Part shown: piece after piece, positions 1 to 22,033 of the stretch | Layout of the letters: the number at the start of each line of letters is the position of its first letter | How positions within the stretch are numbered: position 1 is the stretch's first letter | Assembly: GCF_030063305.1 (NCBI RefSeq) | Contig: NZ_JASISV010000001.1 | Coordinates: forward strand, 434,001 to 498,000 | Length of the DNA: 64,000 nt | From: Salinibacterium sp. G-O1 | GTDB lineage: Bacteria; Actinomycetota; Actinomycetes; Actinomycetales; Microbacteriaceae | Reading direction: 5' to 3' | The notes under the pieces: model-generated | The model's input: only the letters and a program-made list of their open reading frames with translations | Database searches by the model: none | What the model was told of the DNA's origin: nothing | Position numbers and translations under genes: made by a program

Positions 1-30
1 ACACAGCAATCCTCGGCCTCCCTCAGCGAG

Positions 31-2509: not shown

Positions 2510-2531
2510 TTCCCGCCGGAAGGAAGCGAAA

Positions 2532-5467: not shown

Positions 5468-7200
5468 TGCGAATTCACAGTAAGGGCTTTGGCGCAGCGC
5501 CCGACGCGATCACGCTCAAATACAACGGCGCGAGCGTCGAAGCTCAGGCGAGCGACACTGTGGCGTCAGCGCTCATCGCGGCGGGTGACCCTGCTCTGCG
5601 CGTAGCCCGCGAGGACGACAAGCGTGGCGTCTTCTGCGGAATGGGAGTGTGTGCCGAATGCACGGTCATGATCGAGGGCAAGGGGGAGAGCCTCGCGTGC
5701 ATGACCCCGGCCACGGATGGCATGGTGGTGGAATCCGCCGAACCTCGCCTTGATTTGCCGAGCCTGGAAACGGGATCATCCCTGCCAGAGTCGACCCTCA
5801 CCCCGGATGTGGTCGTCATCGGAGCCGGCCCGTCAGGACTCGCGGCGGCAGCGGTTGCGGCGGAAAGCGGGCTCGATGTCGTGCTGCTCGACGAACGCGG
5901 CAAGCTTGGTGGCCAGTACTATAAGCAGCCGGCCCCTGACTTCGACCTTGACGAACATCAACTCGATGGCCAGTACCGACGGGGTCGCGCGCTCATCGGG
6001 CGGGCACGAGCATCCGGTGTCCACATCCTTGACCGCGCAAAAGTGTGGGGTGCGTTCGCTCCGGACCACATCGTCGCAGCGAGTCCGGTTGAACGATGGG
6101 TGATTCGCGCCAAACGTGTGGTGCTTGCCACGGGCGCCTACGAGCGCGGGGTGCCGATGCCGGGCTGGACTCTTCCCGGGGTCATGACGACCGGTGCAGC
6201 TCAAACGTTGTCCCGGTCATATCAGGTGTCGCCCGGACAGCGGGTGCTGGTCGCGGGTAACGGCCCTCTGAACATGCAGGTTGCGGCCGAACTGGCTGCG
6301 GCCGGAGCGACCGTGGTCGCCCTCGTTGAACTTGCCACTCCGGTGCGCGCGTCGAGCGTCCTCCAGAGCGCGACCATGGCGCTGTCGTCCCCCGGCCTCA
6401 TCGTTGACGGAGTTAAGTACGGCCTCGCTCTGGCTCGCGCGCGGGTGCCCATCATCACGGGCAGTGCCGTCGTGAGGATGACCGGCGACGAGAGCGGCGT
6501 GACCGGCGCTGTCGTGGCACGCCTGGATGGCGACGGCACGCCGGTTCCTGGCACTGAGCGGTCCTTCGAGGTTGACGCCGTGTGCATGGGGTATGGCTTT
6601 CTCCCCTCCAATGAGATTGCACGGATGCTCGGCTGCAGCCATCGGTGGGACGAGTCCCTCAAGTCGCTCGTGGTTGAGCGTGATGAGGATGGCCGCACCT
6701 CCGTGCCCGAGACATACGTCATTGGTGATTCGGCACAGGTTCATGGTGCGAAGGTTGCGCAAGCTCGCGGAGTTATTGCGGGTGCATCGATCAGCGCGGA
6801 TCTCACGGGAGCGGTGCCCGGCTCTCTCGAGCGAGAACTCGCAGCCGCTCGTCGCAACCTGGCGCGCAATATGCGCTTCCAGACAGCGCTGAACCGCATC
6901 TACGCGGCTCCCGTGCTGACCGTTGAGCTGGCCACGCCGGAAACGACGGTGTGTCGATGTGAGAGTCTCAGCTTCGACACGGTTTCGCGTGGTCTTGACG
7001 ACCTCACGTCAAGCGCCGGCGCGAGCAAGCGAGTGTCGCGCGTCGGTATGGGCAAGTGCCAGGGCCGCTATTGCGGACCCGTGGTCGTTGCCCTGTCGGC
7101 GTTGCGCAGCGGTGTCTCGGTGGACGAGCGCTCTGGATTCGCGCCGCAGGTACCGTTCAAGCCGACACCGATATCCGTTATCGCCTCGCCGGAACAATAG
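5467..7200 (+). CDS. Fused [2Fe-2S]/FAD/[2Fe-2S] oxidoreductase (HcnA-HcnB/SoxA-like)
   Basis: This 577-residue protein joins three modules. Residues about 1-90 form a small [2Fe-2S] ferredoxin domain with C57, C62, C65 and C78 (C-x4-C-x2-C-x12-C). A two-dinucleotide-binding FAD/NAD oxidoreductase follows (VVVIGAGPSGLAAAA near residue 118). The C-terminus holds a BFD-like [2Fe-2S] site (VCRCE and CQGRYCG). It looks like the gamma and alpha subunits of amino-acid dehydrogenases such as hydroxyproline dehydrogenase or hydrogen cyanide synthase fused together. It lacks the C-terminal GCV_T domain of sarcosine oxidase alpha. In-frame starts also exist at 5419 (TTG) and 5431 (GTG). I prefer GTG at 5467 because it overlaps the previous stop and follows GGAAAAGTGGAAA. 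No DAO-type beta subunit is adjacent, so the catalytic partner is unclear. Confidence 0.85.
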   Translation: MRIHSKGFGAAPDAITLKYNGASVEAQASDTVASALIAAGDPALRVAREDDKRGVFCGMGVCAECTVMIEGKGESLACMTPATDGMVVESAEPRLDLPSLETGSSLPESTLTPDVVVIGAGPSGLAAAAVAAESGLDVVLLDERGKLGGQYYKQPAPDFDLDEHQLDGQYRRGRALIGRARASGVHILDRAKVWGAFAPDHIVAASPVERWVIRAKRVVLATGAYERGVPMPGWTLPGVMTTGAAQTLSRSYQVSPGQRVLVAGNGPLNMQVAAELAAAGATVVALVELATPVRASSVLQSATMALSSPGLIVDGVKYGLALARARVPIITGSAVVRMTGDESGVTGAVVARLDGDGTPVPGTERSFEVDAVCMGYGFLPSNEIARMLGCSHRWDESLKSLVVERDEDGRTSVPETYVIGDSAQVHGAKVAQARGVIAGASISADLTGAVPGSLERELAAARRNLARNMRFQTALNRIYAAPVLTVELATPETTVCRCESLSFDTVSRGLDDLTSSAGASKRVSRVGMGKCQGRYCGPVVVALSALRSGVSVDERSGFAPQVPFKPTPISVIASPEQ

Positions 7201-7212
7201 GAGACTGATCTG

Positions 7213-8193
7213 GTGAGAGTTGTCGTTATTGGGGCCACGGGGCATGTCGGGGGATACCTGATTCCCGACCTCGTGGCTTCCGGCCACGAGGTCGTGGCTG
7301 TCAGCCGGAACGCGCGCCCTCGGTATCGTCAACACGATGCGTGGGACTCGGTGGAGCACGTCGTAATCGACCGCGACGCGGCCGAGCGCGCCGGCACTTT
7401 CGCGGAGGACATCGCGAGCCTCAACGGAGACGTCGTTGTGGACATGATCTGTTTCACCCCCGATTCGGCTCAACACCTTGTCGACGGACTTCGGGGCCGT
7501 GTTCTTCGGTTGATCATGTGCAGCACCATCTGGGTCAAGGGGCGTCTGGCATCGGTGCCGGCAGATGAAGACGTGGTGAGCGAACCATGGGGGGACTACG
7601 GCATCGACAAGGCCGCGATCGAGGAGATTCTGCGCCTCGAGTCACTGCGTCCAGGGGGGCTGCGAAGCACGGTCATTCGCCCCGGCCAGATCTGCGGGCC
7701 AGGATGGGCCGTCATCAATCCCCAGGGCCACGGTGGTCTCGAGGTATGGGAAACCATCGCTGCCGGGGAACCGGTGGCGTTGCCAAACTTCGGGTTGGAG
7801 ACCCTTCACCATGTACATGCGAGCGACGTAGCCCAGGCATTTCAGCTGGCCATCGAACGCGAAACCGCTCCCGCGTTCGACGTCTTCAATGCCGTCGCCG
7901 CGCGCGCCAGTAATCTCCGGGGCCTCGCCGCTGCGATTGCGACGCGATTTGGTCGCGAGGTGGCCTTTGAATTCGTGCCGTTCGAGGCTTTCCGTGAGCG
8001 AGTGTCGCCGACCCAGGCATCGACATCATTCGAGCACATTTCCCGGAGCCAGGTGATGAGCATCGAACGTGCGAGGACTGAGTTGGGTTACCGACCTCGC
8101 TACTCGGCAGAGGACGCGGTCGCTGAGTCAGTCGGCTGGCTCTGCGAATCGGGCATGCTCTCAGCGAAGGCCGCCTCACGATGGTTGGGCTAA
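7213..8193 (+). CDS. NAD-dependent epimerase/dehydratase family protein
   Basis: This 326-residue extended-SDR protein starts at GTG 7213, 12 bp after the flavoprotein. The N-terminal VVIGATGHVGGYL is the Rossmann NAD(P)-binding motif, and YGIDK (about residues 134-138) provides the Tyr-x3-Lys catalytic pair. It ends the plus-strand operon, facing the old-yellow-enzyme gene across a 47-bp gap with a hairpin. Family members act as sugar-nucleotide epimerases, dehydratases or reductases. Here a reductase or epimerase acting on a catabolic intermediate is more likely, but the sequence does not say which. Confidence 0.78.
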   Translation: MRVVVIGATGHVGGYLIPDLVASGHEVVAVSRNARPRYRQHDAWDSVEHVVIDRDAAERAGTFAEDIASLNGDVVVDMICFTPDSAQHLVDGLRGRVLRLIMCSTIWVKGRLASVPADEDVVSEPWGDYGIDKAAIEEILRLESLRPGGLRSTVIRPGQICGPGWAVINPQGHGGLEVWETIAAGEPVALPNFGLETLHHVHASDVAQAFQLAIERETAPAFDVFNAVAARASNLRGLAAAIATRFGREVAFEFVPFEAFRERVSPTQASTSFEHISRSQVMSIERARTELGYRPRYSAEDAVAESVGWLCESGMLSAKAASRWLG

Positions 8194-8240: not shown

Positions 8241-9323
8241 CTACGGGATGCTGTTCCAGTATTTGGCCCGGTTGTATTGCCATGCCCACTCGAGTTCGCC
8301 ACCCAGTTCTGACGCAGCACGAAGGGCAAAATGGGGTTCGCGCAGGAACTGACGCGCAACAAAGACGATGTCGGTGTCGCCGGTGACAATGGCAGCTTCT
8401 GCCTGCTGGGGCGATGTGATGAGACCGGCGACGGCAACAGGGATGTCGACCTCTGCGCGAATCTTGCGCGCCAGCGGCTGCTGGTAGCCGGGTCCGGGCA
8501 CGATGTGTTGGCCCGGGCTGTTGCCACCCGAAGACACGCTGATGAGGTCGACACCGACGAGGCCACGAATCACCGCGATGGTGTCGTCCACCGTGACGCC
8601 GCCGGGTACCCACTCCGTGGCGGACAGGCGCACGACGAGCGGCATGTCGGCGGGAATCACTTCGCGGACCGCTCCGATTACCTCGCGAAGAAGGCGCGAG
8701 CGTCCGGCGTCGTCCTTCCCATATTCGTCGGTACGAGTGTTCGAGGTCGGGGACAGGAACTGCCCCAGAAGGTACCCGTGCGCGGCATGAATCTCAACAA
8801 GATTGAAACCGGCTTCGACAGCTCGGCGGGCGGCGGCGCGGTAGTCATCGACAACCTTCTTGATGCCAGCGATGTCAAGGGCGATGGGCGCCGCAAACGG
8901 CTCGTACGGTAGGTCGGTCGGTCCGACCGTGGCCCAACCGCCCTCGGCGGGCGGAACGTATCCCCGACCGCGCGTCGGTGGAGCGGTCGAAGCCTTGCGC
9001 CCCGCGTGGGAGAGCTGCATGCCGATGAGCGAGTCCATGCTGTGCACGAAATCGACAACTCGACGCCACCCGGTGGTGTGATCGTCATTCCAAAATCCTG
9101 CGTCATCGGGAGAGATTCGTCCCTCGGGGGAGACTGCGGTTGCTTCGGTCATGATTAGGCCGGCGCGCCCAAGCGCGTACGAGCCGTAGTGTGCCACATG
9201 GAAGTCGGCCGGGTGGCCATCGATCGAGGAGTACATGCACATAGGGGCAACCCAGAGGCGATGCGGAACGGTGAGTCCATTGATGGTAATCGGCTCAAAC
9301 AGTTGAGACTTGGGGCTAGGCAT
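8241..9323 (-). CDS. NADH:flavin oxidoreductase, old yellow enzyme (YqjM-type)
   Basis: This 360-residue FMN TIM-barrel reductase shows the thermophilic-like/YqjM subgroup marks: C29 in APMCMYS, the substrate-binding HxxH (EIHAAHGYLL), and FLSPTSNTRTDEYG. Such enzymes reduce activated C=C bonds with NAD(P)H; relatives in amino-acid loci can act as demethylases or enoate reductases. It is the last gene of the minus-strand operon, 39 bp after the small ferredoxin, with AGAGGA seven bases before the ATG. The cytosolic location and FMN dependence follow from family knowledge. Its place beside a transporter and flavoprotein dehydrogenase suggests it reduces an unsaturated intermediate of the same pathway. 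Confidence 0.9.
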   Translation of the reverse strand: MPSPKSQLFEPITINGLTVPHRLWVAPMCMYSSIDGHPADFHVAHYGSYALGRAGLIMTEATAVSPEGRISPDDAGFWNDDHTTGWRRVVDFVHSMDSLIGMQLSHAGRKASTAPPTRGRGYVPPAEGGWATVGPTDLPYEPFAAPIALDIAGIKKVVDDYRAAARRAVEAGFNLVEIHAAHGYLLGQFLSPTSNTRTDEYGKDDAGRSRLLREVIGAVREVIPADMPLVVRLSATEWVPGGVTVDDTIAVIRGLVGVDLISVSSGGNSPGQHIVPGPGYQQPLARKIRAEVDIPVAVAGLITSPQQAEAAIVTGDTDIVFVARQFLREPHFALRAASELGGELEWAWQYNRAKYWNSIP

Positions 9324-9362
9324 ACAAGGTCCTCTCGATGGAAATCACTCTAAAACTTGGGT

Positions 9363-9674
9363 TCACGGCTGGTCCGAAGCAAGTCCGGCTCCACGTTGTC
9401 GTTCGACGGTCAGGCCGTCCCGCACCCACGTGACACAGGTGCGGGTGTTGGGCACTCCATCGATCGTCATCACGCAGTCGAAGCAAATTCCCATACCGCA
9501 GAAATAACCTCGTGGCTCGCCTGATTCGTCTTCGCGAAGGTCATTTTGGCCGCACGCCATGATCGCGGCGGCGACGCTCTCGCCCTCGAACGCATCCTGC
9601 GTTACGCCATCGACGACGATGCGCACGCGAGCTCCACGTTCCATGCCGTGACCAGTAGTGCGGCCCGAACTCAC
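9363..9674 (-). CDS. Small (2Fe-2S)-binding protein (HcnA/LhpE-like gamma subunit)
   Basis: This 103-residue ferredoxin-like protein has a C-x4-C-x2-C-x(n)-C cluster site (YFCGMGICFDC ... TCVTW), as in the gamma subunit of hydrogen cyanide synthase and D-hydroxyproline dehydrogenase. It starts at a GTG that overlaps the stop of the DHDPS-family gene (GTGA). The FAD/DAO fusion two genes upstream lacks an N-terminal ferredoxin, so this protein probably completes that enzyme. A later start at the internal ATG before ERGARVRI would also leave the whole domain intact. Confidence 0.85.
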   Translation of the reverse strand: MSSGRTTGHGMERGARVRIVVDGVTQDAFEGESVAAAIMACGQNDLREDESGEPRGYFCGMGICFDCVMTIDGVPNTRTCVTWVRDGLTVERQRGAGLASDQP

Positions 9675-10615
9675 GATTGACCCGCAGTGGGGGCGAGCAA
9701 GCCTTCGTCAACGAGAACGGCCCGCATAGCCGAAAGAGCCTCCGGGTCATTCACCGGCAGCCGGGGACGGCGAACGTGTCCGGCAGGCTGGTCCAGCATG
9801 TGCATCAACGCTTTCAGCTGTGACTGGTAGCCACCGTAGATTCCGGCCCAGCCGCCCGGAAGCCACAGCTTCGGGAAGAGACGATCCTGGATCGCCGCAT
9901 ACCGCTCCATGGATTCAAAGTCGCCTGCCCAGTAGCTCTCCCAGAACGCCGGGTCCGGAGCCCCGAAGAGGGAGCCCCCACCTACGGTGCCGTCGCCACC
10001 CTCTGTGCGAAGCACCTCCACACCACGAGCGGACATATACGGGCCGAAGACGCGCACGCGGTCACGCACGCGACGCGACGTCTCGAAGAACTGGTCGGCG
10101 TTCGGCGTGCTGTCCTTGATCGCGACGATCGAGTCGATGTCTGCCAGGCGGTCTGCGAGGTCAGAGTCGATATCGATGCCGGTGCCGTGCGGCCAGTTGT
10201 AGACGACTGTGGGCCCCTTGACTGCGGCACTGACCTCTTCGTACCAGGTCACCACTTCGTTGGGGAACAGTTTGATGTAGGGCGGCGGGGACACGAGCAC
10301 ACCGTCGGCGCCGGCGTCGAGAGCGTGACGTGCCAGCACCTGCACGTTCTCTACGGTGTTCGAGGTGCAGCCCACGAGCACCCGCATTCTTCCATTCGCT
10401 GCACCGACGGCCGTTTCGGCGACAGTTTTTCGTTCGTCGACACTTTGCGAGAACCACTCGCCGCACGTGCCATTGACTACGGCACCGTGCATCCCGCGTT
10501 CTACGTACTGTTCGATCAGTGCGTGCATCGTTTCGGTGTCGAGCGCGCCGGACTCAGTGAACGGGGTCACTACCGCGGGCAGGTACCCAGCCCAATCGAT
10601 GTCATCACGATTCAT
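9671..10615 (-). CDS. Dihydrodipicolinate synthase/N-acetylneuraminate lyase family protein
   Basis: This 314-residue class I aldolase-fold lyase has the Schiff-base lysine in IVAIKDST and the family tyrosine in VVYNWPHG. An early VTPFTESGALD segment and GTCGEWFSQS match the pyruvate-binding GTTGE region, with C in place of the second T. GGAGCTGAGAA precedes the ATG. In hydroxyproline degradation a member of this family deaminates pyrroline-4-hydroxy-2-carboxylate to 2-oxoglutarate semialdehyde. Its position between the flavoprotein dehydrogenase and its ferredoxin makes an analogous deaminase or lyase step likely. True lysine-biosynthetic DapA is unlikely in this context. Confidence 0.85.
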   Translation of the reverse strand: MNRDDIDWAGYLPAVVTPFTESGALDTETMHALIEQYVERGMHGAVVNGTCGEWFSQSVDERKTVAETAVGAANGRMRVLVGCTSNTVENVQVLARHALDAGADGVLVSPPPYIKLFPNEVVTWYEEVSAAVKGPTVVYNWPHGTGIDIDSDLADRLADIDSIVAIKDSTPNADQFFETSRRVRDRVRVFGPYMSARGVEVLRTEGGDGTVGGGSLFGAPDPAFWESYWAGDFESMERYAAIQDRLFPKLWLPGGWAGIYGGYQSQLKALMHMLDQPAGHVRRPRLPVNDPEALSAMRAVLVDEGLLAPTAGQS

Positions 10616-10672
10616 TTCTCAGCTCCTATTATCTGGTTTTGCATAGCTTTGGTGGATTCTGTGGCGAACGTC

Positions 10673-13342
10673 TTACGACATCCGGTCAAGGGAGAAACGC
10701 TCGTGGAAGGGTGACGATCCCGTGTGCTGATTCAGGATCTGTTCAGACACCTGGTACGCGAAGATGGGGGAAAACGTGAACCCCGTAGTCGCAACGCAGG
10801 CGAAGTAACCAGGCACTTTCGCGGACTCGCCGACAATGGGTGACTTGTCTTCAGTAAAAGCGATCACCCCAGACCACGTGCGGATTACTCTGACATCGTC
10901 GAGAGCGGGAATGATCTCTCGGGCGACGTTGAGATTTCCGGAAGCGCTCTGCCACGTGGTGGGGTACCGGGTCGGGTAGGCGGACTCGCCCGTCGGCCAA
11001 CCTCCACCCACAATGAACCCGCCGTGGGAGGTCTGCTTCAGTGTGAGCCGGCGGCCGATGTGCTGCACCATGGAGGGGAGCAAGTGCGGTCGGGCTTCGG
11101 TCACATTGACGTGCAGGCCTTCGCGCCTGATCGGGAAGTTGAGTCCCACCATTTCGGCGAGTTCGCCGGCCCAGGCCGCGGCACAATTGACGACACGGCG
11201 GGCGTAGAAGGTGCCCTGCGAGGTGTGCACAGTGAAACGTCGAGATGGGGATGCGTCGTTGACTTCGATGCCCAGCACCTCAGTGTGAGTCCTAATGGTG
11301 GCACCAGCCTCCGCAGCGCGCTGCGCGTAGAGCGGCGCGGTGGTGAGTGGATTGGCGTGCCCTTCCAGGCCACAGTACGTTGCCCCCAGGACCCTGTCCG
11401 AAAAGTACGGAGCCCGATCGCGGAGTTCCGCGCCCGTGAGCACTTCGGTTTCTATTCCGGCTTCGGCTTCGAGAAGGTGTTTTTCGTGCAGGATCTGCAG
11501 CTGTTCCGCAGTCTCGGCGACCATCCAGCCGCCGGTCTGGTGAAGACCAACGTCGGCTCCAAGTTCCTTGCTGAGGCCCTTCCACAGCTCATAGGCTCGG
11601 ACGCTGTCACGGGCATCGCCGAGCAGGCGGTCCCTGTCTGCCGTGGTTCCTGCGCCCGAGAGCTGGTGGATGGCAAGTTGAAAGTGAAAGCTTCCGGCAT
11701 TGGTGCCCGAGGCTTCCCGATTCAGCTCCCCTCGTTCGAGGAGCGTCACCTCCACGCCCTCTTTCGCGAGGTAATAGGTGACAGCCGCGCCGGCGATCCC
11801 ACCGCCGATGACCAGGACGTCGACCTCTTCAGCGTTCTCCGGGGCCTCAGAGAACAGCCGCTCAGCGCGCACAGGTTTGGTCGAGTCGGCCTTGGTGTCG
11901 AAAAGGCCGGGGTCTGAAACGTTCGCGTTTGCGATCGCGCTGATCGGTGTTGGTCGCACAGGCATTCGGGGAGTCGTCGGCGCAACTTCGGAGATCGACA
12001 CTCCTCGGTTCTCGGCAATCATCGATGCAATATGGCGGCCGCACATCCGCCCCTGGCACGGGCCCATTCCTGCGCGAGTCAGCCCCTTCACCGCACTCAC
12101 GTCGGGAGCCTGATCGATCGCCTCCGCGATCGCGGAGAGCTTTATGCCCTCGCAGCGACAGACCGTGGTGTCGTGCGTGGCGAGCTCGAAGATGCCATCG
12201 CCGACGTGGTACATGCGTTCAGCGGCCGCGGTGAGGGCCCGGCGGCGCTTGAGCGCTGAGAGAAGCCGAGATGCGCGAGCCGCGGCTTCCTCGTCGGTGA
12301 GCGCGTCGGCGTCGGTGGCCACAGCCAACGCCGCCAACCGTCCTTCGTCTGCAGCGACCGCGGAGCCTTCGACTCCGGTTCCGTCGCCAGCCGCGTAGAT
12401 ACCGGCAACGCCGGTGCGACACCACTCGTCTCGGCGGACAACGGGTCCGCCGAGATCCTCGTTGTCGTCGAATTCGCAGCCGACCAGCCGGAGGAGTTCG
12501 GTGGCGGGGGAGAATCCGTAGCCGACGCAGAGCACGTCGGCGTCGATGATCTCTTCTGTGCCCGGCAGCACCCGCCAATGCTCATCTACCGCCGCGTGAA
12601 CGACGCGTTCGACGTGCCCCTCGCCTTCTGCGCGCACGACAATGCGACCGTACCTCAGGGGAATCCTGTGCTTAAGAAGGGAAGCTCGATACTTCGCCGC
12701 GTCACGGAGAAGCCCGACGTTGCCGGGCGCGGCCAGGGCAACCCGTGCGAGATCTGTGATGCAGGGAGCGGGGCCCGACTCGAGAGCTGTCACGATATTT
12801 GCCCCATAGCCGGCGAGCTGGGCGGGGAATGCGAGAGCTACGGGGCCGGACCCGGCGAAGACGATGCGGTCGCCGGGAATTACAGCCTGTGTCTTTGCCA
12901 ATGTTTGGAGGCCGCCAGCGGTGATAACCCCGGGAAGCGTCCAACCCGGAAACACCACGGGCCGGTCGTTGGCGCCCGCGGCGATAACGACCCGGGCAGC
13001 CGACATCCGCTCGACGGTCTGACCCTCTCGCTGCACCATCGCGGTCCAACCGTGCGGGGAGGGTTCGACGCTGACCACACTCGCCCGCAGGACGATCTCG
13101 GCGCCGCTCCGCGCCGCCTCGTCGATGAGGCGGCGGCCAGCGCGGTACTGCGCACCCATTGCTCGAGGGTCTGTAACCCGCATCCCGGGGCCAGGTTGTT
13201 TGTATACCTGGCCCCCGAGAGTTGGGCGTTCATCGATGAGCGCTGTCTTCAGGCCTGCGGCCGCTGCCGTGGAGGCAGCAGCCATTCCGGCGGGACCGCC
13301 CCCCACCACGAGGACATCGAAAACACGCTCATCTTCTTGCAT
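10673..13342 (-). CDS. Fused FAD/NAD oxidoreductase-BFD-DAO amino acid dehydrogenase
   Basis: This 889-residue protein fuses two subunits that are usually separate. Residues about 8-350 form a two-dinucleotide-binding flavoprotein (VLVVGGGPAGMAAAS). Residues about 390-440 hold a BFD-like [2Fe-2S] site with C395, C397, C429 and C434. From about residue 507 a DAO domain begins (VLVIGGGIAGAAVTYYL) and runs to the end. The order matches LhpF-LhpB or HcnB-HcnC type dehydrogenases, with the ferredoxin gamma subunit encoded two genes downstream. The enzyme should oxidise an imino or D-amino acid and pass electrons through two FADs and the clusters. It starts 3 bp after the solute-binding protein stop, so uptake and oxidation are co-expressed. 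The substrate is inferred, not shown. Confidence 0.88.
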   Translation of the reverse strand: MQEDERVFDVLVVGGGPAGMAAASTAAAAGLKTALIDERPTLGGQVYKQPGPGMRVTDPRAMGAQYRAGRRLIDEAARSGAEIVLRASVVSVEPSPHGWTAMVQREGQTVERMSAARVVIAAGANDRPVVFPGWTLPGVITAGGLQTLAKTQAVIPGDRIVFAGSGPVALAFPAQLAGYGANIVTALESGPAPCITDLARVALAAPGNVGLLRDAAKYRASLLKHRIPLRYGRIVVRAEGEGHVERVVHAAVDEHWRVLPGTEEIIDADVLCVGYGFSPATELLRLVGCEFDDNEDLGGPVVRRDEWCRTGVAGIYAAGDGTGVEGSAVAADEGRLAALAVATDADALTDEEAAARASRLLSALKRRRALTAAAERMYHVGDGIFELATHDTTVCRCEGIKLSAIAEAIDQAPDVSAVKGLTRAGMGPCQGRMCGRHIASMIAENRGVSISEVAPTTPRMPVRPTPISAIANANVSDPGLFDTKADSTKPVRAERLFSEAPENAEEVDVLVIGGGIAGAAVTYYLAKEGVEVTLLERGELNREASGTNAGSFHFQLAIHQLSGAGTTADRDRLLGDARDSVRAYELWKGLSKELGADVGLHQTGGWMVAETAEQLQILHEKHLLEAEAGIETEVLTGAELRDRAPYFSDRVLGATYCGLEGHANPLTTAPLYAQRAAEAGATIRTHTEVLGIEVNDASPSRRFTVHTSQGTFYARRVVNCAAAWAGELAEMVGLNFPIRREGLHVNVTEARPHLLPSMVQHIGRRLTLKQTSHGGFIVGGGWPTGESAYPTRYPTTWQSASGNLNVAREIIPALDDVRVIRTWSGVIAFTEDKSPIVGESAKVPGYFACVATTGFTFSPIFAYQVSEQILNQHTGSSPFHERFSLDRMS

Positions 13343-13345
13343 TGG

Positions 13346-14203
13346 TTAGCAGCCACCCGGCATGTCGGGCATTTCGGGTGCCATGATCGAGCGGTACAGG
13401 TCGGCGAGTGTGCCGTCGTTCTGCACCTTGCAGAGGAACGCGTCAAGCTTTGACACCAGGGCGCTGTTGTCCTTCTGAACTCCCCACGAGCCGTAGTAGA
13501 GGCTCAACGGACCATCCACCTTGGCCTGTGCCAGCTGGTTGGGGTTGGCAATGCTGAACTGGGCGAGAATATAGTCCTCGACGACGACCGCAGCCGCACG
13601 ACCGGTGGCAACCTCAAGAAGCGCTGCATTCTGGTCGGGGAATCCGCTGACGGTGGCGTTGGGGAAGTTGTCGCGGATCAGCTGTTCGTTGCTCGAACCC
13701 TGAAGGGCCGTGATGATCACACCCTCCTTATTGAGCTCATCGATCGTCAAGCTCGTGCTGTCCCCTTCGGGCACAGCGAGAATGCTGCTGTAGGGAATGT
13801 AGCCGCGGGAGAAGTCGATAACTTTCTTCCGCTCATCGGTGGCACTAAGGCCGACGGAGACCATGTCGAACTGCTTGGCCTGCAGCCCTGGAATCAGGCC
13901 AGCAAAGTCCAGGTTCTTGATCTCGAGTTCAACTCCCATCTCTTCGGCGAGTGCGTTGAGAAGCTCGACGTCGTAGCCAGTGGGCTTGTCGCCCTCGAGG
14001 TACATCTGCGGCTTGTACTGAAGGTTCATTCCGACGACGAGAACTCCTGGCGTCATCAGTCCGTCGTTCTCCGGGGCGGCGGATTCTTCAGTGGCGCCTC
14101 CGCTGGCGCCCCCGCTGGCGCACGCTGAAAGCACTAACGCTGCAGCTGCCATTGTCGCAACGAGCGGCAACTTCAGGGCCTTCCTGACGGATCGTGTCTT
14201 CAT
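13346..14203 (-). CDS. Amino-acid ABC transporter substrate-binding lipoprotein
   Basis: This 285-residue family 3 (PAAT) binding protein has a lipoprotein signal peptide with lipobox LSAC (C28), so it should be anchored outside the membrane. GYDVELLNALAEEMGVELEI and FDMVSVGLSATDERKKVIDFS are typical of HisJ/GlnH-like proteins. Nothing in the sequence fixes the ligand. It lies 58 bp after its permease and 3 bp before the fused dehydrogenase, so the ligand is probably that enzyme's substrate or a precursor. The protein ends in a cysteine; C257 in FLCKVQ could pair with it. Confidence 0.92.
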   Translation of the reverse strand: MKTRSVRKALKLPLVATMAAAALVLSACASGGASGGATEESAAPENDGLMTPGVLVVGMNLQYKPQMYLEGDKPTGYDVELLNALAEEMGVELEIKNLDFAGLIPGLQAKQFDMVSVGLSATDERKKVIDFSRGYIPYSSILAVPEGDSTSLTIDELNKEGVIITALQGSSNEQLIRDNFPNATVSGFPDQNAALLEVATGRAAAVVVEDYILAQFSIANPNQLAQAKVDGPLSLYYGSWGVQKDNSALVSKLDAFLCKVQNDGTLADLYRSIMAPEMPDMPGGC

Positions 14204-14261
14204 GCTGTTCTCCTTCTGGTTGTTTGTTGAGGTGTGATTGGGCGACGGGTTGAGGTCTGCG

Positions 14262-15038
14262 CTACTTCACAAAGAGCTGCGCGGTGGCAAGGGAGCTGGC
14301 CCTGGTTTTGGCAACGATCTTGTCGATGTTGCGACGTTGACGGGCCCTGATCGCGCGCCCGAGAAGGGCCTTGGGTGGGCGAACGTAGACGCCCTCGACG
14401 AGCCTGAAGACCAGGTCGATCGCGAATGCGGCGATCACGTAGATGATCGCCGCTGCCGTGTACAGCACGAAGGGCTGGAATGTCGTCGCAACCAGGTTCT
14501 GTGTGACGCGGACGACCTCGAGCAGGCCGATCACCGTGAACGTGGAGGTGTCTTTGACCATCCCGATGTACATGCTGCCGATGTTTGGCAGTGCAATCTT
14601 GATCGCCTGAGGAAGGGAAACCGAGAAGAAGATCTGGCTCGTACGCATCCCCAACGCCCAGCCGGCTTCCGTATGTCCGTGCGGGACAGCGGTGAGTGCA
14701 GAGCGGAAGATCTCCGCAAGGAAGGCGCTGTAAAGCATCGACAGCGCGATCACGCCTGCCTGGAACACGCTGAAGCTGATACCGAGTACCAACGAGAGGC
14801 CAAAGTAGACCCAGATGACACTCACGAGGGCTGGAACGCCACGGAACACGTTGATGTAACCGACGGCAATCCAGCTAACGGACCTGGGGCCGTTTCGCAG
14901 GACCGCCAGCAGCAGCCCAACCACTGTCGAGATCAGGAGGGCGACTGTGGACACCGACAACGCCGTCCACATTCCGTTGATCAGGGCCCCGCGGTTGTCC
15001 CAGATGAGTCCCCAGTCAAAGTCGAACAGGCTCATCAC
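14262..15038 (-). CDS. Amino-acid ABC transporter permease (HisM/GlnP family)
   Basis: This 258-residue membrane protein has about five hydrophobic segments and the EAA-type loop (EAGWALGMRTSQIFFSVSLPQAIKIALP) that docks on the ATPase. Start codons GTG (15038) and ATG (15035) are adjacent and overlap the ATPase stop, so translation is coupled. There is a single permease, so a homodimer is expected. The C-terminus is unusually long and basic (RAIRARQRRNIDKIVAKTRA). Confidence 0.92.
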   Translation of the reverse strand: MMSLFDFDWGLIWDNRGALINGMWTALSVSTVALLISTVVGLLLAVLRNGPRSVSWIAVGYINVFRGVPALVSVIWVYFGLSLVLGISFSVFQAGVIALSMLYSAFLAEIFRSALTAVPHGHTEAGWALGMRTSQIFFSVSLPQAIKIALPNIGSMYIGMVKDTSTFTVIGLLEVVRVTQNLVATTFQPFVLYTAAAIIYVIAAFAIDLVFRLVEGVYVRPPKALLGRAIRARQRRNIDKIVAKTRASSLATAQLFVK

Positions 15039-15832
15039 TTCACCGCTTTCAGGAATTCTTTGGCTCGTTCGGTTGTGCAGTTGTCGTAGAAGCCGCGCGG
15101 CCCCGATTCAACGATTCGTCCGTTTTCCATGAACACGTTGAGATCGCCAATTTCCCGAGCGAAACCAAACTCGTGAGTGACGACCACAATGGTCATCCCC
15201 GTCTCCGCAACCTCGCGCATGCTCTTCAGCACCTCGCCAACGAGCTCAGGGTCAAGCGCGGAGGTCGGTTCATCGAAAAGGATCACATCCGGATCCAGCG
15301 CCAGGGCTCGCGCGATGGCAACGCGCTGCTGTTGACCACCAGATAGCTCAGATGGGTAGTGCCCGGCTCGCTCAAGGAGGCCCACCTTTCGCAAGGCTTC
15401 CGCTGCATGTTCGCGCGCGTCGCTCATGCTCTTTCCCTGCGCTTTGCGCTGTGGCAGCGCGACATTATCAAGAGCGCACAGGTGGGGGAATAGGTTGAAT
15501 TGCTGGAAGACCATTCCCACTTTGCGCCGCAACTGCAGCTTTGTTCCGCGCTTCAGGTTCTCATCGGCAAACCCGGGGCCGTACTCGACTCCATCAACCT
15601 TCAGCGAGCCCTTGGTGGGTTCTTCGAGAAGGTTGATGCTGCGCAGCACGGTGGACTTTCCCGAGCCCGAGGGGCCGAAAAGCACGACGTGCTCGCCCTG
15701 ATGAATATCGAGGTTGATTCCGTGCAGAACTTCCGTCTGCCCGAAGGATTTGTGGAGTCCCCGAATCTGAACGATGGGGGTTTTGACAGCGTTGCCGCCG
15801 GCGGGTCGCATTTCGTCGACACGGGTACTCAT
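15035..15832 (-). CDS. Amino-acid ABC transporter ATP-binding protein
   Basis: This 265-residue ATPase has Walker A (GPSGSGKST), the LSGGQQQR signature, Walker B with D-loop (VILFDEPTSALDPE) and the H-loop histidine (VVVTHEFG). It belongs to the polar amino acid uptake family (GlnQ/HisP). I chose the ATG at 15832, which overlaps the VOC gene stop (ATGA); the longer frame upstream is the VOC gene's shadow. With the permease and binding protein this makes a complete importer. Confidence 0.94.
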   Translation of the reverse strand: MSTRVDEMRPAGGNAVKTPIVQIRGLHKSFGQTEVLHGINLDIHQGEHVVLFGPSGSGKSTVLRSINLLEEPTKGSLKVDGVEYGPGFADENLKRGTKLQLRRKVGMVFQQFNLFPHLCALDNVALPQRKAQGKSMSDAREHAAEALRKVGLLERAGHYPSELSGGQQQRVAIARALALDPDVILFDEPTSALDPELVGEVLKSMREVAETGMTIVVVTHEFGFAREIGDLNVFMENGRIVESGPRGFYDNCTTERAKEFLKAVK

Positions 15833-16794
15833 GCGCGGACCTCCGTAATAGAGACATAAAGGCCGGCTGGATCCTGGAAGTACGCGTAGCGCCACACCTG
15901 GCCGTCCGTCATCGTGATCTCGACGGGCTCGCCAACGAGGGGGATGTCCATGGCCTTCAAATAGGCGAGTGCAAGGTCGAGGTTCCGGGCGCCGATGGCG
16001 AATTCGAAGGTGCCGAGGTGGCCCCATTCACCGCGCATGTCTGCGCCAGGTGGGTCCTGTTCGACGGGTTCAAGTGCCCCACCGTGCGGGCTCGTCAGCA
16101 GCATCATCCGCTGGACTGGTGGTACCCGGCCAACTGATTCGAACCATGGGTTCATCGGCGTGTTCACCCCGCTGGCATCGAATAGTTTGCCGGTGAAACC
16201 CAGTTTTCGGTAGAAAGCCTCGGTTTGCTCGATATCGGTGACCCCGAAAGCGACGTGATTTACCCCTTGAGGGCCGCTCGGATGCGGCCACCCTGATTCG
16301 AGCGTTGACCATTCGATGAGCTCGATCTTTGCGCCATCGGGATCTTCGACATACGAGAGCCCGCAATGCGTCTGGTACGGATCGAGAACCTGCTCGTCGG
16401 GCTCCATCAGGCTTGTATGGCCCGATGCGACTAGTGATTGGTAGAACTCGGCCTGGCCCTTGACGTGCAGGCACACCTCGCAGATGCCCGGCTCGCCATA
16501 GGCGAATCCCTCCGGGAGTGGCCCCTGCTCGCGGCTCGTGATCTGAACCAGCTTCACACCGGATCGGCCTAAGACGGTGGGGTTGATGCTGCGCAAGTAA
16601 ACGACGCGGGCTTCCGTTGAATCGTGTCCTGTTGCCTCCTGAAGGCCGCCCAGGGGTCCGGCGTAGTCGAACACGACGTCCGAGAAGCCCAGTTGCGCAT
16701 AGAACTCGAGCGATGAATCCATGTCGGAGACGCCCACGCCGATGTGATCAAGGCCTATCAACGAACCAAAACCATGGGTGGCCTGACTGGTCAT
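15829..16794 (-). CDS. Two-domain VOC (glyoxalase/dioxygenase fold) protein
   Basis: This 321-residue protein has two vicinal-oxygen-chelate domains, at about residues 13-160 (LIGLDHIGVGVSDMDSSLEFY) and 180-320 (GVNHVAFGVTDIEQTEAFYRKLGF). Both carry HIxxxVxD/HVxxxVxD starts, and the metal-ligand histidines appear to be kept. VOC proteins include glyoxalases, epimerases, extradiol dioxygenases and resistance proteins; I cannot pick one. It is the first gene of the importer/dehydrogenase operon and lies next to the palindromic operator, so it probably works early in this pathway, for example as an epimerase. Confidence 0.82.
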   Translation of the reverse strand: MTSQATHGFGSLIGLDHIGVGVSDMDSSLEFYAQLGFSDVVFDYAGPLGGLQEATGHDSTEARVVYLRSINPTVLGRSGVKLVQITSREQGPLPEGFAYGEPGICEVCLHVKGQAEFYQSLVASGHTSLMEPDEQVLDPYQTHCGLSYVEDPDGAKIELIEWSTLESGWPHPSGPQGVNHVAFGVTDIEQTEAFYRKLGFTGKLFDASGVNTPMNPWFESVGRVPPVQRMMLLTSPHGGALEPVEQDPPGADMRGEWGHLGTFEFAIGARNLDLALAYLKAMDIPLVGEPVEITMTDGQVWRYAYFQDPAGLYVSITEVRA

Positions 16795-16910
16795 CCGAAT
16801 CCTCCGGTGCTCATGTGACGGCTACCCGGCGCCGGCACCAACTCGGGGTTAGGTGCCTGATCCAGGATGACGGCGTGGTCGCCTAGGGGAAAAGGTTTGC
16901 ACACCGAACG

Positions 16911-16952
16911 TTTGAACGCAAGGCGAACATAAAAGTTCGCCTTGCGTTCAAA
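16911..16952. promoter_or_regulatory. Perfect 18-bp inverted repeat operator between divergent operons
   Basis: The arm TTTGAACGCAAGGCGAAC (16911-16928) is repeated exactly inverted at 16935-16952 around the spacer ATAAAA. Further GAAC-type half-sites flank it outside (CGAACG at about 16906, GGTTCGC at about 16953), extending the symmetry with mismatches. Each arm contains TTGCGT reading outward, usable as a -35. On the plus side TACAGT follows after 18 bases. The site sits between the VOC operon and the SDR operon, so one dimeric or tetrameric repressor/activator could control both. There is no T-run, so it is not a terminator. Confidence 0.8.
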
Positions 16953-17084
16953 GGTTCGCATATCGTACAGTTTTGGGATGCGGCCCCCGTATTTCCCACG
17001 GGTGCATCGTCAGTGTCATATGGCGAGGTTTGCCCCGCGGAACGCAGAACCGCACTTGCCCGCCGACGAAGCGTTGTAGGAGAA

Positions 17085-17867
17085 ATGGACGAATCAGCAG
17101 ATGCACGCGGATCGACCGACTCACCAACGGAATTTGTGTCGCGCCGTTTTCTCGTGACCGGCGGAGCCCGGGGTATCGGGGCCGCGGTCGTCCGGCGTCT
17201 GTCGAGTGCGGGCGCCTCCGGACTCATCGTTGATCAGACGGTGGATCCTGCGGCACCCACCGCATGGCCGGCAGTAGCGGTAGATGTCACAGATGAAGCC
17301 GCCGTGCGCGATGCCATCCAGGCAGACGTTGAAGAAAATGGCCCATTTGATGGGCTTGTCGCGGCGGCGGGAGTTGTGCCCAGTTGGCATAGCCCAACCG
17401 ACGTTGACCTCGAGATGTTGAATCGAACCCTCGCTGTAAACGTCACCGGGTTCGTCGCAGCCATGAAGTACGCTGCACGCGACATGCCTCGGGGGTCAAC
17501 CATCGTCGCTATCGGGTCGCTCAATTCATGGCGTGGAGACCCGAACCTGCTCGCATACGCGGCAAGCAAACATGCAGTCCTAGGAGTCGTCCGTTCGGCT
17601 GCGCAGTCGCTCGGTCCCCGGGGCATCCGAGTGAATGCCGTCGCCCCCGGACCTGTCGCGACCGACGCACTGCTGGAGCGAATGGAATCCAGAAGCGCGA
17701 TCACGGGAATGACCCAGACCGAGGCGCTGATGGCCGCTGAACGACTTACCGCATTGGGGTCACTCGCGACGCCTGACGACATCGCTGACGCGGTGATGTT
17801 CCTGTCCGGCCGCAGTTCCGCCGCGATTACTGGGCAGATTGTCGCTGTCGACGGAGGGCTGCTCTAG
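17085..17867 (+). CDS. Short-chain dehydrogenase/reductase (SDR) A
   Basis: This 260-residue classical SDR has VTGGARGIG for NAD(P) binding, the catalytic serine region IGSLNSW, and YAASK with the Tyr-Lys pair. The start is ATG 17085 after TAGGAG; the frame extends upstream but without a good ribosome site. The ending AVDGGLL is typical of 3-oxoacyl-ACP reductase-like SDRs. It is the first gene downstream of the inverted-repeat operator. The next SDR begins at the base after its stop codon, so they are co-translated. Confidence 0.85.
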   Translation: MDESADARGSTDSPTEFVSRRFLVTGGARGIGAAVVRRLSSAGASGLIVDQTVDPAAPTAWPAVAVDVTDEAAVRDAIQADVEENGPFDGLVAAAGVVPSWHSPTDVDLEMLNRTLAVNVTGFVAAMKYAARDMPRGSTIVAIGSLNSWRGDPNLLAYAASKHAVLGVVRSAAQSLGPRGIRVNAVAPGPVATDALLERMESRSAITGMTQTEALMAAERLTALGSLATPDDIADAVMFLSGRSSAAITGQIVAVDGGLL

Positions 17868-18644
17868 ATGCACACGACAAGTGGCTTGGATCTTGACGGC
17901 CGTTCCGCATTGATCACCGGGGTTTCAGGCGCGATTGGATCCCTTATCGCCTCTACATTCGTCGAGCGTGGCGCGCGAGTGGCTGGCACCTATCGAAGCC
18001 GTGAGGCGGCAGCAGAAGGTGCGCTGGCAGCAGCGCTCCCCGGGCGCTCGACTCTCTTCCGCGCAGAGCTGGATTCTGCGCCATCCGCCCGGGAGCTATG
18101 GCGTCGCGTCGAAGAGTGGCACGACATGGACACCCTTGTCGTCAACGCAGCCGCGATGACCCACGCTCCGTTGGCCGGCGACGATACCGACGCCTGGGAC
18201 AGCAGCTGGGAGCGCTCATTCCAGGTCAACGTGCTTGGCGCGGCGACACTCATGCGCGAGGCCGCTTTGTCGTTCTCGCAACGAGGGTTCGGAAGCATCA
18301 TCGCGATTTCGAGTTGGGCCGCCGAGCAGGGCTCCCGCCTGCCCGATGCCAACGCTTATGCGGCCTCGAAAGCGGCGCTTCGTAACTTCGGGCAAACGTT
18401 GGCACGCTCGTATGCCCGCGATGGCGTACGCGTGTACGTCGTGGCGCCAGGTGTTGTTGGCGGCGGGATGGGAACTTCCGGTTTAAGTCCCGACGAAATT
18501 CAGGCAGCAGCGGACGGACTGGCGATGGGACACCATGTAGACCCTCGCGAGGTGGCGGAGCTGACAGCTTTTCTGGCAACCGATCGATGTCCGAGCCTGA
18601 CGGGTTCGACCATCGACCTCAACGGCGCGTCGTACATCCGCTAG
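17868..18644 (+). CDS. Short-chain dehydrogenase/reductase (SDR) B
   Basis: This 258-residue SDR begins immediately after the SDR A stop. It has ITGVSGAIG, the ISSWAAEQG serine block and YAASKAALRNFG with the catalytic Tyr and Lys. It shares limited sequence with SDR A, so the pair is not a recent duplication. Possible roles are oxidation of a hydroxyl group on the transported compound, or two consecutive redox steps with SDR A. The exact reaction is unknown. Confidence 0.83.
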   Translation: MHTTSGLDLDGRSALITGVSGAIGSLIASTFVERGARVAGTYRSREAAAEGALAAALPGRSTLFRAELDSAPSARELWRRVEEWHDMDTLVVNAAAMTHAPLAGDDTDAWDSSWERSFQVNVLGAATLMREAALSFSQRGFGSIIAISSWAAEQGSRLPDANAYAASKAALRNFGQTLARSYARDGVRVYVVAPGVVGGGMGTSGLSPDEIQAAADGLAMGHHVDPREVAELTAFLATDRCPSLTGSTIDLNGASYIR

Positions 18645-18702
18645 TGACCAGCGTCACGCCCGCGCCACGCGCGCTTCAACCTCTCGAACGGGCCACACTC
18701 AT

Positions 18703-19701
18703 ATGACAATTTATTCGACCTCCAACCTCGAACAACCTGACTCCGAGATCCAGTCGGTCGCAATTGTCGGCGCTGGCAGCATCGGAATCGCGTGGTGCAT
18801 CGTCTTCGCGAGTGCCGGTGTTGACGTTCGGATCTTCGAGCTCGATGAGACCCGACGGGAGTCGGCCCTGGCGGCAGCGGAGTCATTGCTGCACGAAATG
18901 CATGGCGCTGGACTGCTCTCGGAGCCGGTTGACGACATCCTCGTGCGGATGAGCGTGTGGGAGACGCTGGCCGAGGTTGTTTCCGGAGTCGGGTACGTGC
19001 AGGAGTGCGTCGTCGAGAATATCGATGTGAAGCGCGAACTCTTCCACCAGCTGGATCAGTTGACGCCAAAAGAGGTCGTGCTTGCAAGCTCGACGTCTGC
19101 AATTCCGTCCTCGAAATTTGCGGGCGAACTTGAAGGCCGTGATCGTTGCCTCGTGGTTCACCCGGCGAACCCGCCATACTTCCTCCGCGTCGCTGAGATC
19201 GTTCCCGCCGAGTTCACCTCGTCCGCGACGGTTGCAGCGACAGCCGCAATCCTCAGGCGCGTGAGGATCTCACCCGTCCTTCTCAACACCGAGATAGAAG
19301 GATTCGCTTTCAACCGCCTGCAGGGAGCGCTCCTACGAGAGGCCTACTGCCTGGTGCGGGACGGAGTAATTTCAGCGGTTGACCTCGACACGCTCGTGAG
19401 GGAAGGGCTCGGGAGGCGATGGTCAGTCGTCGGCCCTTTTGCCACGAGCGAACTAAACACTCGCGGTGGCCTTCGCCAACACTCCGAGGTTCTGGGTGCG
19501 GTGTACGCCCGATTCGGCCTCGAACGCGGTCTCGAGAACCCATGGACGCCCGCCACCATCAATACGGTCGCCAACGCGATCGAGCAGGATTTGCCCTTCG
19601 GTAACTGGGAAGAGAACGTGCGCGAGCGTGACCACGCGATGATCAAGGTCGCGTCACTTCTTAAGGGCTTCGAGAACCCGCTGGTGCGGGGCGAATCCTA
19701 G
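18703..19701 (+). CDS. 3-hydroxyacyl-CoA dehydrogenase family protein (lambda-crystallin/L-gulonate 3-dehydrogenase type)
   Basis: This 332-residue NAD-dependent dehydrogenase has an N-terminal Rossmann motif (VAIVGAGSIGIAW), the catalytic histidine segment VVHPANPPYFLRVAEIVPA and a helical C-terminal domain with NRLQGALLREAYCLV. The HPANPP block is the mark of lambda-crystallin, L-gulonate 3-dehydrogenase and L-carnitine dehydrogenase relatives rather than fatty-acid FadB. It follows SDR B by 58 bp on the same strand with a weak ribosome site. It probably oxidises a 3-hydroxy carboxylate or 3-hydroxy amine intermediate. Confidence 0.84.
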   Translation: MTIYSTSNLEQPDSEIQSVAIVGAGSIGIAWCIVFASAGVDVRIFELDETRRESALAAAESLLHEMHGAGLLSEPVDDILVRMSVWETLAEVVSGVGYVQECVVENIDVKRELFHQLDQLTPKEVVLASSTSAIPSSKFAGELEGRDRCLVVHPANPPYFLRVAEIVPAEFTSSATVAATAAILRRVRISPVLLNTEIEGFAFNRLQGALLREAYCLVRDGVISAVDLDTLVREGLGRRWSVVGPFATSELNTRGGLRQHSEVLGAVYARFGLERGLENPWTPATINTVANAIEQDLPFGNWEENVRERDHAMIKVASLLKGFENPLVRGES

Positions 19702-21970: not shown

Positions 21971-22019
21971 ACTCGGGGCCGAGTTGCGGCAGCGATGCTA
22001 CGGTCGGGATTCACCCGAC
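21971..22019 (+). promoter_or_regulatory. Two small inverted repeats upstream of heliorhodopsin
   Basis: ACTCGG-GG-CCGAGT (21971-21984) and GTCGGG-ATTCA-CCCGAC (22003-22019) lie between the divergent starts. The second ends one base before the AAGGAG ribosome site. They could be an operator and a leader hairpin. No convincing promoter hexamers are seen. Confidence 0.35.
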
Positions 22020-22033
22020 AAAGGAGTTGGATT

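Follow-up and report, generated by a model that had tools for sequence, protein, structure and literature searches.

A candidate island for the import and breakdown of an amino-acid-like compound in Salinibacterium sp. G-O1

The dehydrogenase and its described relatives

Among described operons, we take Streptomyces coelicolor SCO6289-SCO6293 to be the type closest to the genes considered here, a likeness drawn from descriptions rather than from comparison of proteins. That operon is described as combining the alpha, beta and gamma parts of a dehydrogenase with a DHDPS-family protein, and as having an epimerase too (PMC6608401). The motifs given for D-hydroxyproline and opine dehydrogenases comprise two for ADP binding, two for [2Fe-2S] clusters and one Arg-X-Trp, and the flavin-containing opine dehydrogenase OdhABC is a three-part flavo-iron-sulfur enzyme accompanied by ATP-binding cassette (ABC) transporter genes (PMC4575208). 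The present analysis concerns a window of 64,000 nucleotides from Salinibacterium sp. G-O1 (G000:C1:434001-498000 of a 3.14 Mb genome), in which a dehydrogenase of this type is encoded beside an amino-acid importer in a gene set for which a search of the open-licence literature found no description. We give a probability of roughly 55% to the reading that this set forms one end of a catabolic island, some 40 kb long and possibly close to 60 kb, by which an amino-acid-like compound is imported and degraded; the compound would probably be a cyclic (imino) amino acid or one bearing a secondary amine, or else a small peptide or conjugate of such an amino acid. The island is regarded as an amino-acid catabolic cluster built on the D-hydroxyproline dehydrogenase (D-HypDH)/opine dehydrogenase type and is not counted within the hydroxyproline pathway.

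The fused dehydrogenase (889 residues) joins Pyr_redox_2, Fer2_BFD and DAO domains and, taken together with the small Fer2 protein of the same run, contains the D-HypDH motif set: GxGxxG at residues 14 and 513, RTW at 821, and [2Fe-2S] cysteines arranged as C59-x4-C-x2-C-x12-C in Fer2 and as CxC at 395 plus a CQGRMC pair in the fused chain. The CxC...C spacing in the alpha part is 31, as against the 15-20 printed in PMC4575208. With the S. coelicolor operon the island shares the three dehydrogenase parts and a DHDPS-family partner in one operon, together with the cofactor motifs; unlike that operon, its alpha and beta parts are fused, no racemase-family gene occurs in its genome, and an amino-acid ABC importer, a class III aminotransferase (AT3), AcoX, a GcvPA/GcvPB-like pair, a 3HCDH-type dehydrogenase (HCDH), SDRs, an old-yellow-enzyme (OYE) reductase and a VOC protein are added.

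The alpha/beta/gamma architecture in common with nopaline and octopine dehydrogenases, and the amino-acid ABC importer, would also fit flavin-type degradation of an opine or other N-substituted amino acid, the dehydrogenase splitting a secondary amine into an oxo acid and an amino acid, perhaps one resembling γ-aminobutyrate (GABA); AT3 is GABA-transaminase-like (the solved structures closest to it carry the name 4-aminobutyrate transaminase), and relatives of the island possess an aldehyde dehydrogenase (ALDH) of the succinate-semialdehyde dehydrogenase (SSADH) type. This account is considered decidedly unlikely: the best solved relatives of the DAO part are sarcosine and glycine oxidases, with no opine enzyme among them (none may be solved), the island differs from OdhABC in its DHDPS, hydroxy-acid and omega-amino modules, and no opine-synthase-like or ornithine-cyclodeaminase gene was noticed among the genes read, no genome-wide search having been made. 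GABA degradation by aminotransferase and SSADH likewise shares AT3, the SSADH-type ALDH of the two relatives tested and an alanine dehydrogenase present in four loci; however, the island set is much larger, and the ALDH of its own genome scores below the SSADH cut-off. Ectoine, carnitine and pyridoxine breakdown were dropped from consideration, as the EhuB/EhuC-, carnitine-dehydrogenase- and FHMPC-dehydrogenase-like scores all fell below cut-offs. Mycosporine, hydroxylysine and dihydroxyproline were among other substrates weighed by reasoning alone, and nothing observed pointed to any of them.

Plain hydroxyproline breakdown was ruled out as a full account, since the genome contains no member of the racemase family and further genes are conserved with the dehydrogenase. 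The initial annotation had noted the lack of a proline racemase or 4-hydroxyproline epimerase, which holds genome-wide (PF05544, 0 matches). The broader claim made there is supported as well, namely that the genes serve specifically to import and oxidise a compound of the amino-acid type, with a dehydrogenase of the D-HypDH/opine type at the core and no match to the known hydroxyproline pathway. A hydroxyproline or 3-hydroxyproline pathway (that is, for a proline-type imino acid) with accessory genes would have the dehydrogenase form a pyrroline carboxylate, the DHDPS-family enzyme deaminate it and an ALDH complete the route, while an M24 peptidase and dipeptide transport fed in imino-acid dipeptides. 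The architecture and motifs of the dehydrogenase and the catalytic Lys and Tyr kept in the DHDPS-family protein would suit it, as would an M24 peptidase gene (C1:412329-413543) and dipeptide-type ABC genes upstream of the window, both kinds also being annotated in two Rhodobacterales stretches (Roseicitreum and Antarctobacter, the peptidase as M24-type). In two related loci, moreover, a gene of the proline racemase family lying 16 bases past GcvPB (L050) and an enolase-family open reading frame (ORF; L106) scored best against trans-3-hydroxyproline dehydratase and cis-3-hydroxyproline dehydratase, respectively, each below cut-off. Such a pathway nevertheless lacks its racemase in this genome and has no place for AT3, AcoX, GcvPA/GcvPB, HCDH or the SDRs, and it is considered unlikely. 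A weaker point on the same side comes from Sinorhizobium meliloti pSymB, where we take the hyp genes to be those recognised by similarity in an unannotated record: in that stretch the window dehydrogenase had no match at 1e-5, and the DHDPS-family protein was 27% identical over 170 residues to the presumed HypD. This comparison counts as weak evidence because the three-part D-HypDH type is in any case said in PMC6608401 to have no significant homology with HypO.

Conservation and extent of the gene set

When the fused dehydrogenase alone was used as the search query, 68 stretches matched a pattern and nine encoded a relative, these nine loci coming from Salinibacterium, four Microbacterium, a record titled Planococcus, Plantibacter, Actinomadura and Nocardioides. 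Genes were called with a codon-usage caller, as a longest-ORF caller over-called in high-GC DNA, and with the latter for three low-GC genomes (L110-L112). The order VOC-ATPase-permease-binding protein-dehydrogenase-DHDPS was kept in 9/9 loci, the DHDPS gene being cut by the contig end in the Planococcus-titled locus (L039), and because these loci were found with the dehydrogenase alone the grouping goes beyond chance; comparison of gene order in other genomes had been named beforehand as a check on the system, and its result was favourable. The identities in L039 are like those of the Microbacterium loci, and that record may be mislabelled or contaminated.

Conservation extends well beyond this order. 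Importer, VOC protein, lyase, HCDH, aminotransferase, AcoX, GcvPA and ALDH were kept in all nine, one set being completed on a second contig: AT3-AcoX-GcvPA stands in the same locus in 8/9 and on another contig (L087) of the ninth genome, and L087 was also counted for L039 in placing an ALDH in the cluster in 9/9. HCDH precedes the SDR/VOC end in seven loci and directly follows GcvPB in two (L043 and L044), while the two SDR genes adjoin VOC in eight loci and in Plantibacter follow GcvPB on an adjoining stretch (L085). OYE was present in 6/9, the L039 contig ending before its position, and the dehydrogenase is split in two in L043, L044 and L109. The ALDHs of both relatives tested exceeded the SSADH cut-off of 646.35 bits (L050, 681.4; L110, 696.2). 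An alanine dehydrogenase near GcvPB in L050, L077, L079 and L109 (tested with a profile model in L050 only) would fit a pyruvate-dependent aminotransferase; the L079 neighbourhood also resembles, by eye, an ordinary protocatechuate (pca) cluster.

Much of the conserved set was also found in further Actinobacteria (L109-L112), the three low-GC genomes having ALDH, AT3, AcoX, GcvPA, GcvPB and HCDH. CoA-transferase pairs adjoin HCDH in L110 and L112, with none in the L111 stretch, and thiolases occur in L110 and L111 (PcaF-like, below the pcaF cut-off), with none in the L112 stretch; HCDH, CoA transferase and thiolase together would fit a route from a 3-hydroxy acid via a 3-oxo acid to acyl-CoA. 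Within the genus itself the island is patchy: a full-length dehydrogenase was detected in just 3/26 other genomes (G012, G013 and G025), and the island is therefore accessory. In G012 (L046/L047) the soxA-like gene was seen in two pieces. Two further genomes of the genus (G005 and G010) contain DHDPS-DAO-Fer2-Nox genes of 35-45% identity, with no AT3, AcoX, GcvPA/GcvPB or HCDH matches in the 20 kb read.

The genes listed in the initial annotation, which covered positions 8241-19701, were all found at about the coordinates given there. Co-transcription of importer, dehydrogenase, ferredoxin, DHDPS, OYE and VOC genes, as proposed in that annotation, appears likely because the gaps among the eight minus-strand genes from VOC to OYE are only -4 to 58 bases, VOC and ATPase overlapping by 4 bases, and the two SDRs and the lambda-crystallin-like dehydrogenase do run divergently, on the plus strand at 17013-19701. 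The boundaries did not survive comparison, since many genes of the conserved set fall outside them and the unit does not begin at 8241: it takes in window positions 1-8193, a second tight plus-strand run of AT3, AcoX, GcvPA, GcvPB, soxA-like and SDR genes, plus about 20 kb upstream. Those 20 kb (L045) encode a DUF885 protein, SnoaL-like proteins, a DAO protein, an ALDH, an IclR-like regulator, a DHDPS-family protein, an SDR and dipeptide-type ABC genes (named by eye and similarity), together with second copies of HCDH (54% identical), OYE (50%) and the amino-acid ABC set. The lack of a 2-oxoglutarate-semialdehyde dehydrogenase (KGSADH) had been taken as a further sign of an unusual substrate; none occurs within the window, yet an ALDH gene, its type not settled, lies about 8 kb before it (G000:C1:424434-425975), and an argument from a missing aldehyde dehydrogenase fails in view of the ALDH kept by the relatives. 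Further upstream are a CoA-transferase pair and a thiolase (C1:395293-397900), the latter best matched by the 3-oxoadipyl-CoA thiolase model below its cut-off; in G025 a similar set, recognised by eye, precedes an M24 gene (by Pfam) and dipeptide genes, with an IclR-like gene and a transporter in between. DUF885 proteins (L045, 279-1940; L053, 5559-7259) adjoin DHDPS/DAO dehydrogenase clusters and dipeptide-type transporters, and may be their peptidase or hydrolase.

AcoX, the GcvPA/GcvPB-like pair and their wider spread

Both window subunits of the GcvPA/GcvPB-like pair exceed the NCBIfam cut-offs for the glycine cleavage P-protein (GcvPA, 429 bits with a cut-off of 364; GcvPB, 489.9 bits with a cut-off of 441), and the motif HKTF around the pyridoxal phosphate (PLP) lysine is kept in GcvPB. 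The residues flanking that motif differ. In 12/12 rows of canonical GcvPB, Asn precedes LHKTF (IHKTF in one) and His follows, as also in 8/8 rows of a type encoded beside sugar-transport and, in most, GH42-like genes (GH42 assigned by eye), and the Thermus structure 1wyt_B agrees with the canonical residues; in the island type Met and Lys replace that Asn and His in 30/30 rows (25 distinct genes). In a midpoint-rooted tree, GcvPB from AcoX-carrying loci formed one branch (33 rows, 100/100 support), within which the island type was a branch of its own (25 genes, 100/99) apart from the sugar-context type (8 genes), so that the window GcvPB belongs to a separate clade linked to AcoX; the tree carries a long-branch warning, and the canonical two-subunit rows did not form one group. 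Five rows cut by locus ends were left out, the same genes being kept in longer loci, and in Natronosalvus AcoX lies elsewhere on the plasmid that carries GcvPB.

Ordinary glycine cleavage was ruled out for the pair, as the genome has a housekeeping gcvT-gcvH-gcvP run elsewhere (C1:902081-906515, GcvT named by eye and place) and the neighbourhood of the PLP lysine differs. The sole GCV_H match of the genome (C1:903265) lies inside that run and none in the cluster; no GcvT was noticed beside the pair, a genome-wide GcvT search not having been made; and all nine cluster genomes have a second P-protein match (27-30% identity, frames of 966-1331 residues). Judged from sequence, the GcvPB-like enzyme may catalyse a changed reaction. 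Its partner is presumed to be AcoX, the acoX gene being described in the literature as a predicted NAD kinase; the window protein had no relative in the PDB by sequence, and its structure model matched nothing clearly (best E 9.6e-4). It is possible, though doubtful, that AcoX and the GcvPA/GcvPB-like pair work together as a new catalytic module of two components, in which a kinase would phosphorylate an amino or hydroxy compound and pass it on to a PLP enzyme that has lost glycine cleavage. On this view the module would be reused in several amine and amino-acid pathways of Actinobacteria and Alphaproteobacteria, and the island, the largest carrier among those read, would degrade an amino acid whose breakdown has not been described in bacteria.

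Searches for the wider spread covered Actinobacteria genomes and plasmids. GcvPB was detected at E 1e-120 or better in 3/396 genomes of the phylum and AcoX at 1e-10 in 12/394 of the class, the own genome included in each. In Rhodobacterales a looser version of the set is plasmid-borne: in Antarctobacter, Paracoccus aminophilus and Roseicitreum, AcoX-GcvPA-GcvPB is accompanied by SDRs, a DHDPS-family protein, an aminotransferase and HCDH, and also annotated on all three plasmids are 2Fe-2S and FAD-dependent oxidoreductases, IclR and succinate-semialdehyde dehydrogenase, together with a 'sugar phosphate isomerase/epimerase' in 3/3 (Pfam-tested in Paracoccus) and an OYE-type gene in 2/3. Identities to the window are 59-64% for GcvPB and 43-60% for AT3. 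Record notes give a diatom culture and intertidal sediment as sources of the carriers, and a derivative of Paracoccus aminophilus JCM 7686 that lacks the carrier plasmid pAMI4 has been published (PMC3925955).

The own genome contains a second AcoX-GcvPA-GcvPB-SDR set near GH42-like and sugar ABC genes (L108, G000:C1:8497-15524; by eye), a similar arrangement recurring in L113-L119. On Rhodococcus and Gemmobacter plasmids (L121, L122 and L138) AcoX-GcvPA-GcvPB occurs with an APC permease, an SDR and an AMP-binding/acyl-CoA synthetase (L138 by eye), a primary-amine oxidase being nearby in L122 (annotated) and L138 (by eye).

Proposed route and features of the locus

From the observed gene content, order and conservation, the cofactor motifs and the separate GcvP-like clade, we infer the reactions and the substrate class of the following route. 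The ABC system would import the compound, and the fused dehydrogenase with its [2Fe-2S] gamma protein would oxidise a C-N bond to an imine, which the DHDPS-family enzyme may open, cleave or deaminate. SDR, OYE and VOC proteins would process the remaining hydroxy/enone skeleton; HCDH would make a 3-oxo acid, to be cut to acyl-CoAs by the CoA transferase and thiolase that some relatives have in the cluster; and the omega-amino part would be transaminated and its semialdehyde oxidised by the ALDH, which is of the SSADH type in the relatives tested. One conserved step presumably falls to AcoX and the GcvPA/GcvPB-like pair. The company of genes in the island points to two branches, one for an omega-amino part and one leading from a 3-hydroxy to a 3-oxo acid.

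Several findings weigh against this reading. OYE was not found near L043 or L044, and in G012 no importer genes lie between VOC and the dehydrogenase, the set therefore being able to persist without a transporter of its own. The upstream ALDH is best matched by the SSADH model at 476.9 bits, below the cut-off of 646.35 (one KGSADH model gave 326.5 against 770), and is only 39% identical to a relative's ALDH, to which two further ALDHs encoded in the genome are more similar (46-47%); the CoA transferase and thiolase genes are some 36 kb upstream of the window and separated from it by other genes. On the Rhodobacterales plasmids another importer, annotated as sugar-type ABC, accompanies the set, identities to the window are 28-34% for DHDPS and 36-40% for HCDH, the DHDPS active-site motifs differ from those of the window protein, and VOC had no plasmid relative at 1e-10, on all of which grounds the likeness is in part one of families only and the substrate there may differ. 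Finally, L106 has the AT3-AcoX-GcvPA/GcvPB-HCDH-ALDH half with no dehydrogenase in the 19 kb read, so that the two halves may be separable.

That locus, and the occurrence of AcoX-GcvPA/GcvPB alone in other contexts, would suit two or three unrelated operons that are merely adjacent (glycine-related GcvPA/GcvPB, amine dehydrogenase, SDR/HCDH). We hold this to be quite improbable: the halves are rearranged yet together across Actinobacteria, with HCDH adjoining GcvPB in L043 and L044 and the SDRs following GcvPB in Plantibacter, and the same families occur together on the Rhodobacterales plasmids. Were the single catabolic island correct, it would provide a gene-level handle on an amino-acid-type nutrient without described breakdown in actinobacteria of several families, with a looser form of the same breakdown set in Rhodobacterales, and would imply a new function for P-protein and AcoX homologues now automatically annotated as glycine dehydrogenase and NAD kinase.

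The window genes concerned are listed in Table 1. The first SDR probably starts at one of two internal codons because its family matches begin at residue 44-52, and a structure model of the VOC protein (pLDDT 77) gave similar TM-scores to two-domain glyoxalases, a dichlorohydroquinone dioxygenase and GLOD4, so that it may be a lyase or a dioxygenase.

Table 1. Window genes of the proposed island, in window coordinates
Gene product	Position	Strand	Remarks
Class III (omega) aminotransferase AT3	1-1389	+	open at window edge, ATG at 31; PRK06105 561.9 bits, cut-off 517
AcoX-type ATP-NAD-kinase-like protein	1382-2509	+	NAD_kinase N and C domains over cut-off
GcvPA-like PLP-fold subunit	2529-3938	+	NF001696, 429 bits, cut-off 364
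GcvPB-like PLP subunit	3935-5467	+	MLHKTFGVTK around PLP lysine; 489.9 bits, cut-off 441
Second soxA-like flavoprotein	5419-7200	+	Fer2_4 + Pyr_redox_2; two [2Fe-2S] cysteine motifs
Extended SDR	7213-8193	+	NAD-dependent epimerase/dehydratase-type
OYE flavin reductase, NamA-like	8241-9323	-	last minus-strand gene
Fer2_4 [2Fe-2S] protein	9363-9674	-	gamma-subunit-like
DHDPS-family lyase/deaminase	9671-10615	-	Schiff-base Lys + Tyr kept
Fused dehydrogenase	10673-13342	-	alpha (FAD/NAD-type + BFD) + beta (DAO) in one 889-aa chain
SBP_bac_3 amino-acid-type binding protein	13346-14203	-	
Amino-acid ABC permease	14262-15038	-	
Amino-acid ABC ATPase	15035-15832	-	longest frame from 16027; ATG at 15832 overlaps VOC stop
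VOC protein, two-domain	15829-16794	-	first gene in transcription order
SDR 1	17013-17867	+	probable true start 17085 or 17136
SDR 2	17868-18644	+	
HCDH, lambda-crystallin/carnitine-dehydrogenase-like 3HCDH	18703-19701	+	PRK06129, 361.4 bits, cut-off 347

About 2.3 kb past the HCDH gene lies a heliorhodopsin gene (21995-22837; PF18761, 315.8 bits), adjoined by genes for a PPK2-type polyphosphate kinase (22851-23660) and a diacylglycerol-kinase-like protein (23653-24657).

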